Of a stretch of DNA of 64,000 nt, positions 39,814 to 45,205 are shown piece by piece (within the stretch, counting starts at the first letter, position 1; each line of letters starts with the position of its first letter). Source of the stretch: Streptomyces sp. ST2-7A (GTDB taxonomy: Bacteria > Actinomycetota > Actinomycetes > Streptomycetales > Streptomycetaceae); the NCBI RefSeq assembly GCF_021390475.1, contig NZ_JAJUWS010000021.1:1-64000 (forward strand), written 5' to 3'. The translations under genes and the position numbers were made by a program. The notes below the pieces were generated by a model. The model saw only the letters and a program-made list of their open reading frames with translations. It was not told the origin of the DNA and ran no database searches.

Positions 39814-39866
39814 CCATCGGTGCCGGGCCCGATCACCCGAGCTGTGATCGGGCCCGGCACCGATGG
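39814..39866 (-). terminator. Strong terminator of the peptide-ABC island
   Basis: A perfect 23-bp stem (39814-39836 with 39844-39866) with a 7-nt loop, five nt past the permease stop codon. Confidence 0.88.
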
Positions 39867-39870
39867 AACC

Positions 39871-42075
39871 TCAGTCGGCCTCGGGCGTCCATCGCGCGGC
39901 CTGCCGAAGCGCCTGGACGGTACCCGCGACCCAACTGCCCAACGCCAGGACCACGCCGACGATCGCCATGGCGGCGATCCCGGTCGCGGAGATGCGAGCG
40001 CCGATGAGCGGCACCGTCATCGGCGCCACCAACCAATAGTTCACGAGAAGACCGACAGCCGTGGCCAGGAGGAGAGGGAGACAGATGACCCAGGCGGCGA
40101 TTTCCGCATGAATCCTCCGTTGCCCCGTGAGCACCGTCAAAGGAGCGGCGGCACGACTGAACCGCAGGAACTCGCCGGCGTTGTTCATTGCCACACCAGC
40201 CCCCAGGGAGATCAGGCCGACAACACCCAACAGAACGACCCAATCAACCGTTTGTGCTCGCTGCTTCGCCCCTCCGTACCAGGAATATCCGAGGGTACCG
40301 ACCCCCGGACTCAGGGAAACCTCACGATAGGCGGTGGCCTTCACGGTGTCCACCGGCAGGTCCGTGCCGGACGCCGAAATCAGCACCAGTTGTTCCACCG
40401 GGTGATCGGAGTGACCCGTGGGGGAATCATCCCGGACCACGATCCTCCCACTCGGGCTTTCCCAGTTCGCCAGTTCCGACAATCTCCCATCCGGGTGGGC
40501 GCGGTTGACCTCCGCCCGCCCGTCACAGGCAAGATCCAGTTCGATCAGGACGGAGCACGGCGCCAAGAGAGATTTATCCCCCTCGGAGTCGGGCCAAGTG
40601 AGCCCCAGAGTGAGAATCCCTTCCGGTAACGCCTCGACAAAATTTGAAATACGCGAGGATTCCTCCGGCGCCTTGACCATGATGACACCGGCGCCCACCC
40701 GTTCGAGGGTTTCCTCTGCCGCGATCATCGGTTCACTGATACGACTGGAATGGGCCTGAACCTGTCCCATGAGACCGATACCGATGACGATTCCCGCCAC
40801 CAGGCGTGCCGTTACTCCCGGCTGGGCGGCCATCCACCGACCGGCCACGAGAGCGCTGGAGACCCCCTTCCTCCCACCGAAATTCGCAAGTACCCTCCCC
40901 ACGGTGGAAATCACCAGAGAAACAACCGCCGGGAGCGTCACCAAGGTGCCGACCACGCCCACCGTGTAGATGATGATGAACCAGAAAGGGGAATTCGCGG
41001 CGATCAAATCCGGCCCACGGGTGGCCAGCAGCAGGAACATCGGGCAGAGCAAAACCTTCAGCCGGGGCTGCTTCTCCGCTCGCGCTCGCGGCGACACCGA
41101 CTGTTCTCCCCTCTTCCCCCTCCGCCCTCTTCCGGAACGGTGCAGAAGGACAACCGCGACCAGTACGACAAGGGCGGCGAGAAGCCCTCCGGCACACAGT
41201 TGCCACCAGGCGCTCCGAAGGCTCATGGACGGCATGATGAAACCGGTCAACGGCAGTCGGTAGTCGAGCCCCATGGCCACCACCCAGGGAAGGAGCCCGA
41301 TGACCGCGCCGACGGAGACCGGCAGCACCGCCTCACCGAGGTTGAGGTACGCACGCGCCGACCAACTCCCTCCCAGGGCCTCGATCAGCGCGGATCGCCG
41401 ATCACGCGCGGTCGCCCCGAGACGTGCCGCGATGACGACGAGCACGAGAGCGGGAAGCACGAGAAGGCACAGCAGTGTCGTCTGGAGCGCCCATAGAGGA
41501 GACACCAGGGTGTGCTCTCCGATGCCGCCGCCACCGGGGTTTCCGTATCCGACGATTTCGAACAGTCGAGGATCCTCGAGGTGGGAGGCGTCCGGACGCA
41601 CGTAGGCGATCCACTCGCCCGGGGACTCGAGCCCCGCCTCTTCGATGAATCCGACCGTCTCACCCCACCTGGTGGTGATTCCCTCTCCCCGTCCCGCCTC
41701 CACGAGAGCGGGCGAGAGCACCGCTTCGCCCGGTCCGGGCCACCGCGGGACTCCCGGAGGCAGCGGGGCATCCTCGACGAGGGGGGCGATGAAGATGACC
41801 GAATACTGAAGGTCATCGATGGTGTCGTAGGTGTATCCCCACAGTGCGACCGCTTGTTCCCCGGGGTTCGCCGCCAACGTGTTCGGACTACGGGCGGCCG
41901 CTTTCTCGTCCCGTGTCTCATAGACGACGGAAGCGACCACGACCGCACAGACCGCGATGGTCAACAATGAGGAGGCCATCAGCAGAGCGGTGAACCGCAA
42001 CCGGCCTTCTCTGGCCCCTCTTCCCGCGGCCCAACCCACCCGGAGCAACTGTGAGGCGAGGGCACGCCGGGTCAC
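39871..42075 (-). CDS. FtsX-like ABC permease of the peptide island
   Basis: A 734-residue membrane protein with about ten helices: one near residues 28-50, a group at 190-390, one near 420, and three at about 628-725. Two large extracellular regions (about 50-185 and 430-620) are typical of MacB/FtsX-type permeases that move or sense extracellular peptides. GTG start overlapping the ATPase stop by four bases. Third positions carry clearly more A and T than flanking polysaccharide genes. With the ATPase it forms a transporter whose likely partner is the secreted peptide encoded upstream; export, immunity or sensing are all possible. Confidence 0.8.
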   Translation of the reverse strand: MTRRALASQLLRVGWAAGRGAREGRLRFTALLMASSLLTIAVCAVVVASVVYETRDEKAAARSPNTLAANPGEQAVALWGYTYDTIDDLQYSVIFIAPLVEDAPLPPGVPRWPGPGEAVLSPALVEAGRGEGITTRWGETVGFIEEAGLESPGEWIAYVRPDASHLEDPRLFEIVGYGNPGGGGIGEHTLVSPLWALQTTLLCLLVLPALVLVVIAARLGATARDRRSALIEALGGSWSARAYLNLGEAVLPVSVGAVIGLLPWVVAMGLDYRLPLTGFIMPSMSLRSAWWQLCAGGLLAALVVLVAVVLLHRSGRGRRGKRGEQSVSPRARAEKQPRLKVLLCPMFLLLATRGPDLIAANSPFWFIIIYTVGVVGTLVTLPAVVSLVISTVGRVLANFGGRKGVSSALVAGRWMAAQPGVTARLVAGIVIGIGLMGQVQAHSSRISEPMIAAEETLERVGAGVIMVKAPEESSRISNFVEALPEGILTLGLTWPDSEGDKSLLAPCSVLIELDLACDGRAEVNRAHPDGRLSELANWESPSGRIVVRDDSPTGHSDHPVEQLVLISASGTDLPVDTVKATAYREVSLSPGVGTLGYSWYGGAKQRAQTVDWVVLLGVVGLISLGAGVAMNNAGEFLRFSRAAAPLTVLTGQRRIHAEIAAWVICLPLLLATAVGLLVNYWLVAPMTVPLIGARISATGIAAMAIVGVVLALGSWVAGTVQALRQAARWTPEAD

Positions 42076-42812
42076 TCGGTATCACCTTTCTCCCGGGGTT
42101 CTCTCAGAACCCCGTTCCACAATTCCAACCGACGGTCCGCCCGGCTCGCCACCTCGACATCATGTGTCACCACCACGAGTGCACACCCATGGGTTCCCGG
42201 AAGGTCGAACAAAATGTCGCAGACCTGATCCCGAATCCTCTGGTCAAGGGCTCCGGTGGGCTCGTCCGCGAGAAGCACGGCAGGTTGATTGACCAACGCT
42301 CTCGCGACGGCCACCCGTTGCCTCTCCCCACCGGAGAGCCGCCCCGTCACCGTACGCGAGACGGGAACCTTCAATTCCTCCAACAACTCCTCGGCCCGCT
42401 CGAAAGCGACCCGACGCCCCTGCCCGGCCAGAAGACCCGCCAGAGCCACATTCTCCACCGGTGACAACTCGGGTAGAAGCTCTCCGAATTGGAACACCAT
42501 GCCCAAATGTTCACGACGATGCCGCGCTCTCTGCCCGGCAGAGAGTCCCACCATGTCGCGCCCCGCGACCGAAACAACCCCGGTGTCCGGCCGGATCAAT
42601 CCGAGCGCGCACATGAGCACCGTACTTTTCCCGCTGCCACTCGGCCCCGTAACGGCCACCGACGTACCCGACTCGACCGTGAGCTCCAGGTCAACCAACA
42701 GCATGCGATCGCCGACGATATGCGACACTCCGGACATCTCCAGGGGCGCCGTGACCTCGGAATTCTCCGTCGAGCGGAGCCTCCGGTTTCGAGCCGTCAT
42801 CTCTGGTCCCAC
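42072..42812 (-). CDS. LolD/MacB-type ABC transporter ATPase of the peptide island
   Basis: A 246-residue ATPase. Walker A GPSGSGKS, signature LSGGERQRVAVARAL, Walker B AVLLADEPTGALD, switch VVVTHD, and the family-typical FQFGELLPELSPVENV. Start read as GTG with AAAGGTGG upstream; ATG 42800 is an alternative. Paired with the FtsX-like permease through a GTGA overlap. It is preceded by a hairpin that separates it from the peptide gene. Confidence 0.9.
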   Translation of the reverse strand: MGPEMTARNRRLRSTENSEVTAPLEMSGVSHIVGDRMLLVDLELTVESGTSVAVTGPSGSGKSTVLMCALGLIRPDTGVVSVAGRDMVGLSAGQRARHRREHLGMVFQFGELLPELSPVENVALAGLLAGQGRRVAFERAEELLEELKVPVSRTVTGRLSGGERQRVAVARALVNQPAVLLADEPTGALDQRIRDQVCDILFDLPGTHGCALVVVTHDVEVASRADRRLELWNGVLREPREKGDTE

Positions 42813-42840
42813 TCTGCGAGGACCACCTTTCCGTGGAAGT

Positions 42841-42866
42841 GGGGTCCGCCGCGTTCGGCGGACCCC
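42841..42866 (-). terminator. Hairpin between peptide gene and ABC genes
   Basis: A perfect 11-bp stem (42841-42851 with 42856-42866) and 4-nt loop in the 101-bp gap. It may act as a partial terminator that lowers ABC gene expression relative to the peptide. Confidence 0.6.
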
Positions 42867-42913
42867 GTGTCATCCGTTCTCAGCAGACCCGGTCAGCGGG
42901 ACCGGGTGAGCGA

Positions 42914-43261
42914 TCATGCGGCCCAGTTTCCACATGAGTCGGGGCCCCACTGCTCCTGACGGCACGCACGAATCTTGTACACCTGGGCACCGTCGGAGTA
43001 CACGGTCGTCCCGGCACCGCTCTTGTTCCACAGCGTACGCACCTCGCCCGGCGCAGACTTTCGTTCGTACTGACCGTAGGCCGCACGACTGTCAGCGCTG
43101 GTGTCCTCGACGTTGGCACGACCGTCGGTGACGCCCGCACCCGACTTCGATGTATAGGCCTTCGACCCAGTGGTCGTGGATGTAATCGCGAATGCCGGGG
43201 CACTGCCCAGAAGAACACCTATCCCCAGAGTAACCACCGCAAGACGCCTGGCGATTGCCAT
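42914..43261 (-). CDS. Small secreted two-cysteine peptide (candidate bacteriocin or signal)
   Basis: A 115-residue precursor. A clear Sec signal peptide (RRLAVVTLGIGVLLGSAPAFA) is cut after Ala25, leaving about 90 residues rich in Ser, Thr, Gly and Lys, with RAAYGQYERKS, LWNKSGAGTTVYSDG and a C-terminal segment RACRQEQWGPDSCGNWAA. Cys100 and Cys110 can form one disulphide. ATG start with GGGAGG upstream. No catalytic domain. It does not match lactococcin 972 by eye. First gene of an AT-richer three-gene set with a peptide-type ABC transporter; role inferred only from this layout. Confidence 0.8.
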   Translation of the reverse strand: MAIARRLAVVTLGIGVLLGSAPAFAITSTTTGSKAYTSKSGAGVTDGRANVEDTSADSRAAYGQYERKSAPGEVRTLWNKSGAGTTVYSDGAQVYKIRACRQEQWGPDSCGNWAA

Positions 43262-43324
43262 GCTTTTCCTCCCGAAACGAACCCTTGAGGGGTAACTTGC
43301 AGGCATCGATCGATGCCCTCCGCA

Positions 43325-43355
43325 ACTATCCCCCCCCCGGGGAGTGAGAGATCAA
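43325..43355 (-). promoter_or_regulatory. Candidate promoter of the peptide gene with a homopolymer spacer
   Basis: On the minus strand TTGATC (43355-43350) and GATAGT (43330-43325) are separated by 19 nt. The spacer carries a run of nine G next to CCCC. The long spacer makes the promoter sensitive to the length of the run. Predicted leader is about 57 nt. Confidence 0.45.
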
Positions 43356-43671
43356 CGCCATGATCAACCTTGGCCGATTTCAGTGAATCATCCCTGCTCA
43401 CAGTTACTTCACCTCTCATTCATTCCGGACATGACCCCCATTCGACACCACCCATAGTTACGGTGAGCTGTTCATCCCGTCACAGAGAAAGATGATCAGG
43501 CCAGGTACATGGAGCCACGTACGGTGACCGAGTCCCGGTCCGATGTGGGAACGTTCGCCCTCCCGGTCGCGGGGCACCCCCGCCACGCCGGGTGTGACTC
43601 GTCATCACCGGGGACTCGGACGGATGTCGCCGAAAGGATTCAACCGGCCCGGCATCCAGCGCTCGGAGCAC
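43356..43671. other. Gap between the peptide island and the polymerase gene
   Basis: The gene-free stretch 43262-43738 holds the promoters of both divergent units. Its left half is A/T-richer like the island; composition returns to GC-rich near 43520, which may mark the island edge. Confidence 0.5.
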
Positions 43672-43677
43672 TAGACT
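43672..43677 (+). promoter_or_regulatory. -10 hexamer of the polymerase gene
   Basis: TAGACT, 61 nt before the start codon; no clear -35 at the expected distance. Confidence 0.45.
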
Positions 43678-43738
43678 CCCCTCGGGTGGTGCCGACGGAC
43701 GAGCCGGGGGGCGCGGGCGCGGCGGGGAGGGGGCGGCG

Positions 43739-45205
43739 ATGGCCGTGGAGATGACGGACCGGCCGCGCCGGACGGTGGGTCCGCGGGATCTCCGGGACCG
43801 GGCCCAGTTGTCCCGCGCTACCGCCCTGCCCCTGATCTTCGGCATCGTCGCGGTGATGCCCGTGGCGGTGGCGGCCCAGTCGGGCGAGGGGGTGCGGGAC
43901 ACCGCCTTCGTCCTCCAGCTCGCGCTCGCCTGCTACGCGGGCGTACGGCTGTGCACCATGGTGCTCTCCGGGCGGCGCCGGCTGATCCAGGGCGTCTTCT
44001 GGCTCTTCTGCTACCTGGCCATGGGCATCGCCCCGCTCGCGCAGAGCGTGCTGGGGCGGGACCCGACCCCGGTGCTCGGCCCCCGGTCGGACACCGTCCT
44101 GGCGACCACCCTGGTACTGCTGGGGTTGGTGGCCTTCGACGTGGGGGCGATGCTCGCCCGGCACCGGCCGACGCTGGGGAACCGGGTCCGCCCGCCGGCG
44201 CGGGTGCACCGCACCCGGCTGTACCTGCTGATCGGGGTGGCGTACGCGGGCTCGTTGGTGTTCATCGCCTCGCTGGGGCCGGAGGTCTTCTTCACCAGTC
44301 GACAGGAGCTGGGCGAGAGCCTGGAGGCGTCCGGCGGAAGCGACGGGGGCGAGGCCGGCAACGCGCTGCTGCGCGGGTTCGGCACGGTCCCGGTGCTGTT
44401 GGCGCTGCTGTTGACCACCCGCTGGCTGGTCACCTCGCGGCGGGCACGGCGCAGCCCGTCGGTGCTGCTGCCCTGGGCGGGACTGGTGGTGCTCAACATC
44501 GTGGTGAACAACCCGATGTCGAATCCCCGGTACTGGTTCCTCACGGTGATGTTCGCCCTGCTGTTCACCCTGTTCCCGCGCAGCCCGGTGATGTACCGGG
44601 CGTCGCTGGCGCTGGGCGTGGTGATGGCGCTGCTGGTCTTCCCCTTCGCCGACCGCTTCCGGTACGACGAGGACGGACACCGGCCGATGGACGCGGGCTC
44701 GGTGCTGGAACCGCTGGTGGTCAAGGACTACGACCAGGTACCCATGATCGCCAACACCATCACCTACGCCGAGGACGGCAACGGGCACACCTACGGCAAA
44801 CAGCTCAGCGGCTCGCTGCTGTTCTTCGTACCGCGCTCGCTGTGGTCGGACAAGCCGGTGGACACCGGGGTGCGGGTGGGCGAGTGGATGGGCACCACCA
44901 ACACCAACCTCTCCGCCCCACTGTGGGCGGAACTGTGGCTGGACTTCGGCCCGTTGGGGATGTCCCTGGGCTTCCTGGCGTTGGGATACGCGGCGGCCCG
45001 CACCGACCGACGGTACGTGCAGCGGACGGTGGACGACCCCTCGCCCGGCAACATCCCGGCGATCGTGGTGCCGGTGATCGCCGGGTACTCCTTCATCCTG
45101 TTGCGCGGACCGCTGCTGCAGGCCACCGGACGGATCGCGATCGCCGCCTTCTGCCTGGCGCTGGTGACGACCTTCCGGGACGATCCGCACCGACGCCTGG
45201 AGTGA
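43739..45205 (+). CDS. wzy: Polysaccharide polymerase (Wzy/O-antigen ligase-like)
   Basis: A 488-residue polytopic membrane protein of about 11-12 helices, with a large loop between late helices (about residues 300-400) containing NPRYWFLTVMF, FRYDEDGHRP and TYGKQLSGSLLFFVPRSLW. The NPRYW and PRSLW-type motifs are shared with actinobacterial oligosaccharide polymerases. It would join lipid-linked repeat units outside the membrane. ATG start with GGGGAGGGGG upstream. Confidence 0.8.
   Translation: MAVEMTDRPRRTVGPRDLRDRAQLSRATALPLIFGIVAVMPVAVAAQSGEGVRDTAFVLQLALACYAGVRLCTMVLSGRRRLIQGVFWLFCYLAMGIAPLAQSVLGRDPTPVLGPRSDTVLATTLVLLGLVAFDVGAMLARHRPTLGNRVRPPARVHRTRLYLLIGVAYAGSLVFIASLGPEVFFTSRQELGESLEASGGSDGGEAGNALLRGFGTVPVLLALLLTTRWLVTSRRARRSPSVLLPWAGLVVLNIVVNNPMSNPRYWFLTVMFALLFTLFPRSPVMYRASLALGVVMALLVFPFADRFRYDEDGHRPMDAGSVLEPLVVKDYDQVPMIANTITYAEDGNGHTYGKQLSGSLLFFVPRSLWSDKPVDTGVRVGEWMGTTNTNLSAPLWAELWLDFGPLGMSLGFLALGYAAARTDRRYVQRTVDDPSPGNIPAIVVPVIAGYSFILLRGPLLQATGRIAIAAFCLALVTTFRDDPHRRLE

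Follow-up and report, generated by a model that had tools for sequence, protein, structure and literature searches.

What is a short AT-richer island of three genes doing beside an exopolysaccharide gene of Streptomyces sp. ST2-7A? The island lies on the minus strand, at positions 39871–43261 of a 64,000-nucleotide stretch of DNA (contig NZ_JAJUWS010000021.1 of assembly GCF_021390475.1); the whole of this stretch is called the window here. Its genes follow each other in the order peptide, ATPase, permease. The peptide is small and of the secreted type, the ATPase is a LolD-like member of the ATP-binding cassette (ABC) proteins, and the permease is FtsX-like. The genome comparisons described below show well that the three form a conserved module. 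We give about an even chance to the reading that this module is a mobile bacteriocin-like cassette, in which the peptide would be exported by Sec and the ABC pair would protect the producer, a function that we infer from these comparisons.

The linkage of the three genes was examined with a profile made from eight peptides (A1), which was searched against 392 genomes of the genus at E≤0.001. Matches were found in 66 genomes, and 67 of the 78 matches outside the window were examined; the other 11 had E-values of 2.0e-4 to 9.2e-4. Both ABC genes adjoin 46 of the 50 strongest matches (E<1e-15; 49 loci, one with tandem peptides, close relatives included), 43 of them downstream on the same strand and three divergently. 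The remaining four comprise two with the permease only and two with neither ABC gene. The linkage is looser among weaker matches. Both ABC genes accompany three of the seven matches between 1e-15 and 1e-8 (two being halves of one split gene) and four of the ten still weaker ones; the other four and six, respectively, have neither. Altogether, 53 of the 67 matches are ABC-linked, in 47 genomes, which with the window genome makes 48 of 392. One seed of the profile (L008, E 0.007) had been retained partly for the ATPase downstream of it. When its subclade of eight matches (L030, L065, L074, L076, L079, L081, L085 and L098) is left out, both ABC genes still stand beside 39 of the 42 strongest matches. 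A later profile, A2, contains members found by A1.

Across the class, 394 genomes were searched and nine matches at E≤2.7e-12 were obtained, all nine beside an ABC pair. These include the window and two earlier genomes, the other six being in further genomes, and three of the nine lie in two other families. The three-gene unit is carried by Actinomadura pelletieri and Streptomyces poonensis; in the former, as judged by eye, the peptide frame comes without a signal sequence, and an interruption splits the ATPase frame. None of the 19 weaker class-wide matches had an ABC match within 1.5 kb. The reverse search started from the permease and covered 199 genomes, a set that overlaps the 392. It returned 27 matches at E≤1.4e-38, window included, with an apparently whole peptide frame beside 21 and a truncated one beside three (G107, G088 and G025). 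No peptide was found beside the last three, namely L199 and L207, for which 700–800 nt were read before the ATPase, and L210, which has a partial permease. Homologues that mostly lack the ABC genes, which the original prediction had named as a finding that would speak against it, are therefore not what was seen. Beyond this family, a larger set of small proteins secreted by actinobacteria weakly resembles the peptide profile (L114, L115, L118, L119 and L132–L150), and their fetched flanks gave no ABC match. On pNOCA01, a Nocardioides plasmid, the annotation shows no ABC genes near a peptide-like match (E 0.4). Phages gave no match to either the peptide or the permease.

All three open reading frames were confirmed on the minus strand. 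The peptide gene (42914–43261) encodes a preprotein of 115 residues and has a strong stretch resembling a ribosome-binding site, gggaggaa, at 43266–43273. The ATPase gene (42072–42812; 246 residues) starts with GTG, with an ATG four codons further in, and it overlaps the permease gene (39871–42075; 734 residues) by 4 nt. The composition of the cassette is foreign-looking against its flanks, as had been claimed. The GC content is 62–66% across 40001–44000 and about 70–78% in nearby kilobases, and the GC content at third codon positions is.68,.72 and.76 for peptide, ATPase and permease against.89–.95 in 12 flanking reading frames of our selection. The two sides are thus far from equal. A perfect 23-bp inverted repeat (39814–39836/39844–39866; the feature spans 39814–39866 and is not assigned to a strand) lies directly past the permease stop and is terminator-like. 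The original prediction had called it a terminator; the repeat itself stands, but a T-run is absent and the terminator scan made no call there.

The cassette is an insertion beside the exopolysaccharide gene. The plus-strand neighbour (43739–45205) has protein relatives in 90 of 246 genus genomes, window included. The 30 best neighbour loci, of which the window is one, were compared with at most 1.5 kb of flank per side, and cassette genes were absent from all 29 others at E≤1e-5. The claim that the island interrupts the exopolysaccharide locus therefore held. The glycosyltransferase gene that borders the cassette in the window starts about 195–855 nt from the neighbour, divergently, in 21 of these 29 loci; in the window the distance is 4.15 kb. 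The glycosyltransferase is on the other side in three loci and was not seen in five. These eight include the seven loci whose neighbour protein is most similar to that of the window (70–73% identity); at the closest loci, then, the flank is rearranged or was not seen. The cassette most similar to that of the window (L066) is 69.8% identical in the permease, 71.6% in the ATPase and 67.0% in the peptide. Its blastn alignment (68.6% over 3460 columns) covers window positions 39871–43298, which we take as the limits of the whole cassette on the minus strand, and the rest of the window between 36000 and 47000 has no match to L066 at E≤1e-5. By eye, the L066 cassette is flanked by a transposase-like frame (L066:7400–8236) and a Hint-domain polymorphic-toxin-like frame (524–1813).

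Relatives of the permease are encoded by 17 Streptomyces plasmid records. In nine that were examined, the peptide is present in seven, two of which have tandem peptides. One of the nine retains only a C-terminal peptide remnant next to an IS3 transposase, and in another an IS3 transposase replaces the peptide and the permease frame is split. In six of these seven records the peptides are annotated as hypothetical protein; the seventh record has no annotation there. Among the plasmids that carry the cassette is NZ_CP081497.1 of Streptomyces sp. BHT-5-2. On a Streptomyces goshikiensis plasmid, tgmA and tgmB, an ATP-grasp gene pair for a ribosomally synthesized and post-translationally modified peptide, lie near the cassette (L171:7656–8833).

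The peptide has a predicted Sec signal peptide (residues 1–25; 43187–43261, minus strand), judged by eye from a hydrophobic N-terminus that ends in AFA. The mature part has about 90 residues, an isoelectric point of 8.7 and two cysteines, Cys100 and Cys110, which form a C-X9-C module (C-RQEQWGPDS-C; 42932–42964, minus strand). The last cysteine pair is exactly nine residues apart in 49 of 50 peptides (the window and matches of at least 100 residues with E≤1e-15), and the remaining one has no cysteine at all; a second pair is present in 11 of the 50. The original prediction had placed the peptide outside the classes that it recognized. This agrees with our searches of Pfam and NCBIfam, in which the window peptide matched no family. 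The one exception among the libraries searched is phrog_11880, a family whose function is not known, which weakly matches two of 45 peptides and the window peptide at 3.7e-4. No description of the peptide family was found in the literature, most subscription papers being outside the scope of that search. A PDB sequence search with the peptide profile gave scattered weak matches and, over about 29 positions, beta-propeller blades; no stretch of the latter passed alone, and they were judged to be chance. The best AlphaFold2 model, for which four sequences were used, consists of beta structure only (six strands) and has a pLDDT (predicted local distance difference test) of 73.5; the other four models reached 49.5–53.4. 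Fold searches with this model gave a best Foldseek E of 0.29 and a best Z of 5.5, the latter to a designed protein. Fibronectin-like and designed sandwiches head the matches, with scores that small beta sandwiches give by chance. From the model, the peptide is likely a small beta sandwich.

The ATPase matches Pfam ABC_tran at 2.3e-31. It scores 187.3 bits against the LolD model TIGR02211, short of the cut-off of 307.75, and is thus LolD-like rather than LolD. The model for putative bacteriocin-export ATPases, TIGR03608, gave 145.6 bits where 254.85 are required. Neither cassette ABC gene reached a curated NCBIfam cut-off among the matches listed. The ATPase also had PADLOC matches, among them mad3 at 9.6e-24; these seem to reflect ATPases in general and were set aside. 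From hydropathy, the permease has about 10 transmembrane segments and two large outside loops. Together with loop charge, the first extracytoplasmic loop is placed at about residues 48–198 (some 150 residues; 41482–41934) and the second at about residues 434–612 (some 180 residues; 40240–40776), both on the minus strand. The FtsX family PF02687 matches 27 of 44 aligned permeases, the best at 1.1e-6; the window permease itself is unmatched by it and by every NCBIfam family. Its structure model has a mean pLDDT of 46.6, and a PDB sequence search gave a single match, at E 0.72.

The second outside loop holds a cysteine pair (Cys507 and Cys517; 40525–40557, minus strand) that is invariant in the 44 aligned permeases. 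The spacing is nine in 36 of them, like that of the peptide, 11 in seven and 13 in one. The C-X9-C motif was absent from the 13 other permeases examined, five of an outer clade described below and eight of the lactococcin 972 type. Codon 483 of the window permease is TTA (40627–40629, minus strand), the codon type read by the bldA tRNA in Streptomyces. A permease paralogue in the window's own genome (G000:C32) is 28% identical over part of its length; its fetched flank contains, by eye, a PadR-like frame, and the peptide was not found there.

Peptide and permease diverge together. Their pairwise identities correlate with r=0.857 over 50 rows, in which one cassette occurs twice and one peptide is split, and none of 2000 Mantel permutations reached this value. 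The partial correlation of peptide and permease given the ATPase is 0.61, and that of peptide and ATPase given the permease is 0.08; among pairs under 60% permease identity the two values are 0.49 and 0.10. This fits direct recognition, yet the lower variability of the ATPase keeps it from being proof. Neither permease loop was favored in a domain-wise correlation (partial correlations given the transmembrane part of 0.18 and 0.17).

Several cassettes are decayed. In G107, G088, G363, G025 and plasmid NZ_CP108982 the peptide is truncated or split and both ABC genes are open; loss of the peptide before the ABC genes is the order expected for a toxin and its immunity. L096 combines a broken permease frame with a peptide that lacks cysteines. 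Single cases of decay could be sequencing errors. Second peptides beside a single ABC pair (L075, L169, L173 and L004) also count in favor of the bacteriocin-like reading.

A GC-rich hairpin with an 11-bp stem and a 4-nt loop lies between the peptide and ATPase genes (42841–42866, minus strand; z −3.4). It was looked for in 53 cassettes, the window and 52 matches with E≤1e-12. Thirty-three junctions were folded, seven had gaps under 40 nt, and for the other 13, either the script missed the cassette or the gap was at least 400 nt long. The hairpin recurs, with z<−2 in 26 of the 33 (median −3.4; close relatives are included in these counts). Controls passed the same threshold in 4/92 random stretches, in 2/46 inside the peptide gene, in 13/46 upstream of the peptide and in 7/42 past the permease. 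No conserved sequence in the hairpin was apparent by eye. It is a possible attenuator or 3′ stabilizer.

In the bacteriocin-like reading, the peptide would leave the cell by Sec and take up the fold of a small beta sandwich that its disulfide closes, and its site of action would be the envelope of related actinomycetes. The two ABC proteins would not be an exporter; at the membrane of the producer itself they may clear away the peptide or release its target, the specific contact being made by the permease. ABC machines of the MacB, LolCDE and FtsX type perform extracytoplasmic mechanical work. The hairpin past the peptide gene could let one transcript yield much peptide and little of the ABC proteins.

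Several observations weigh against this reading. The peptides are mostly acidic, with a median isoelectric point of 5.45 and values above 7 in only 13 of 50. Three peptides beyond the E cut, which stand beside open ABC genes (L105, L113 and L116), have lost the C-terminal cysteine pair and kept the other two cysteines. The ratio of nonsynonymous to synonymous substitution rates (dN/dS) of the peptide is 0.07–0.39 in 10 of 11 close pairs and exceeds 1 in the remaining pair, whose dS is very low; for ATPase and permease it is 0.08–0.35. Positive selection was not seen in these close pairs, and mostly purifying values mean that no strong arms race is visible. L071 and L074 have an intact peptide and permease with the ATPase not in cis, and L092 and L093 (in G392 and G306) have a lone peptide with no ABC genes nearby; peptides without the full ABC pair are awkward for a potent toxin. 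Relatives of L074 with common upstream genes do have the ATPase. The two lone peptides lie, by eye, between parB-like and rsmG-like genes. One cassette subclade shares chromosomal synteny behind a globin gene in six of the compared loci. Conserved synteny, which the original prediction had set against transfer, is therefore absent at the window's own site and present in this one subclade. The profile comparisons with lactococcin 972 given below also count on this side. The immunity model itself is weak, since the function of the two ABC-type genes in lactococcin 972 loci is described as experimentally unverified in the accessible text of PMC11796350.

Some of these points would suit a device against envelope stress, which we regard as rather unlikely and still worth serious weight. 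Here the peptide would be no weapon; it would serve the permease as partner or ligand, and the two in complex would protect the wall or remove lipid-II-type antibiotics. Co-divergence of peptide and permease, purifying selection and the syntenic chromosomal subclade suit such a role. The accessible text of PMC3123327 reports two pairs in S. coelicolor, SCO3089-3090 and SCO3110-3111, that are lipoprotein-release-like and induced at least 30-fold by three envelope antibiotics; deleting both pairs lowered the minimal inhibitory concentration of bacitracin from 40–45 to below 10 μg/ml. By description they resemble the cassette in having an ATPase and a large permease; the envelope role is theirs. 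However, that description, as far as it was available, mentions no secreted peptide or peptide gene with either pair. The patchy, plasmid-borne spread and the broken peptides beside open ABC genes also fit a partner less well. An improbable alternative is that the peptide is a signal or a developmental surface protein and that the ABC pair is its receptor or clearance system. A small secreted-type protein that co-diverges with a large-looped permease would be in keeping with this, as would the TTA codon of the window permease. However, TTA occurs in just 2/43 other permeases and 9/41 ATPases, no regulator family stands beside more than four of the 49 loci (response regulator four, XRE-type four), and most of the 392 genomes do without the linked cassette.

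That the ABC pair exports the peptide is very improbable. Tight linkage alone would favor it; however, the N-terminus of the peptide is of the Sec type by eye, and we know of no ABC machine of the LolD/FtsX type that translocates polypeptides across the inner membrane. The original prediction had given the peptide its own ABC transporter. The linkage part of this stands, and the transport part does not, the pair being probably no exporter. Finally, an unrelated secreted protein might lie by ABC genes by chance, the stretch being odd in composition only. LolD-like ATPases are common in Streptomyces, and the lack of ABC linkage among the weak class-wide matches would agree with such an accident. 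This explanation is refuted by the linkage among the strongest matches of both peptide searches and by the cassettes on plasmids and in another genus, and its probability is next to nil.

Competition among Streptomyces has been studied mostly via small molecules. If the bacteriocin-like reading is true, about one in eight genomes of the genus would carry a minimal mobile three-gene protein weapon with its cognate self-protection. The family would then open a new supply of narrow-spectrum antibacterials, and it would provide a simple system for studying surface protection by FtsX-type ABC machines.

The cassette resembles machines of the FtsX, LolCDE and MacB type in its LolD-like ATPase and in the FtsX domain found among its aligned permeases. 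It differs from them in having a single permease of about 10 transmembrane segments with two outside loops and an invariant cysteine pair, and in the linked peptide of secreted type. Closer to it is an outer clade of 16 weaker permease matches, five of which were read; these five are homologous to the cassette permease (hhalign probability 99.9%, E 8e-38). Upstream of the homologous ATPase–permease pairs of three of them lies a different small secreted protein (L214:277–717, L215:3509–4003 and L218:3766–4335), which ends in R-[AV]-C-RDRGSxHPDN-C. No such protein was found in L216, and the stretch of L217 stops just before the ATPase. The likeness of this second family to the cassette peptide is limited to 20 columns at the C-terminus (probability 6.3%, E 0.0059). 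The sequences suggest that the C-terminal disulfide module may go with the permease. The module is not indispensable, because the three peptides named above lack it.

Among described bacteriocins, the nearest in plan is the lactococcin 972 family, with the lcn972 operon of pBL1, streptococcin B and mediterrocin. The Sec-secreted peptide of lactococcin 972 is reported to be a beta sandwich and is accompanied by two predicted immunity or transporter genes, according to the accessible parts of PMC11796350 and PMC4055356. PMC12328743, in its accessible part, concerns a different bacteriocin class. The cassette has in common with pBL1 and streptococcin B a three-gene unit of a small Sec-type peptide, a large membrane protein and an ABC ATPase, as far as these are described in the accessible text of PMC11796350, PMC4055356 and PMC12345188. 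The gene order in pBL1 is peptide, permease, ATPase, whereas in the cassette it is peptide, ATPase, permease. Membership in the lactococcin 972 family was rejected. The peptide models PF09683 and TIGR01653 were not among the matches of the window peptide or of 45 aligned peptides at E≤1, and PF09683 did not match the window's own genome at E≤0.01, although it is over its cut-off in 13 of 121 genus genomes. TIGR01654, the model for the 7-transmembrane protein of lactococcin 972, was absent for the window permease and the 44 aligned permeases at E≤1 and from the own genome, with a positive L. lactis control. The hhalign comparisons gave a probability of 0.3% for the peptides (A2 against A5) and 0.3% for the permeases. 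For reference, comparison with the outer clade gave 0.4 and 0.6% for reversed profiles and 99.9% for the true permease profile. Lactococcin 972 was not among the best 50 matches of either fold search, which is uninformative.

We think it possible, with considerable doubt, that the cassettes are an undescribed actinobacterial family of protein bacteriocins that arrived independently at the lactococcin 972 plan, with C-X9-C as the handle for the permease in most members. A second peptide family that shares only this module and lies beside homologous permeases would then make the module the mark of a larger peptide–ABC conflict system in Streptomyces. The three ABC-linked peptides without the C-terminal pair count somewhat against this proposal. 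By analogy, the cassette perhaps works like lactococcin 972 without being a member of its family.

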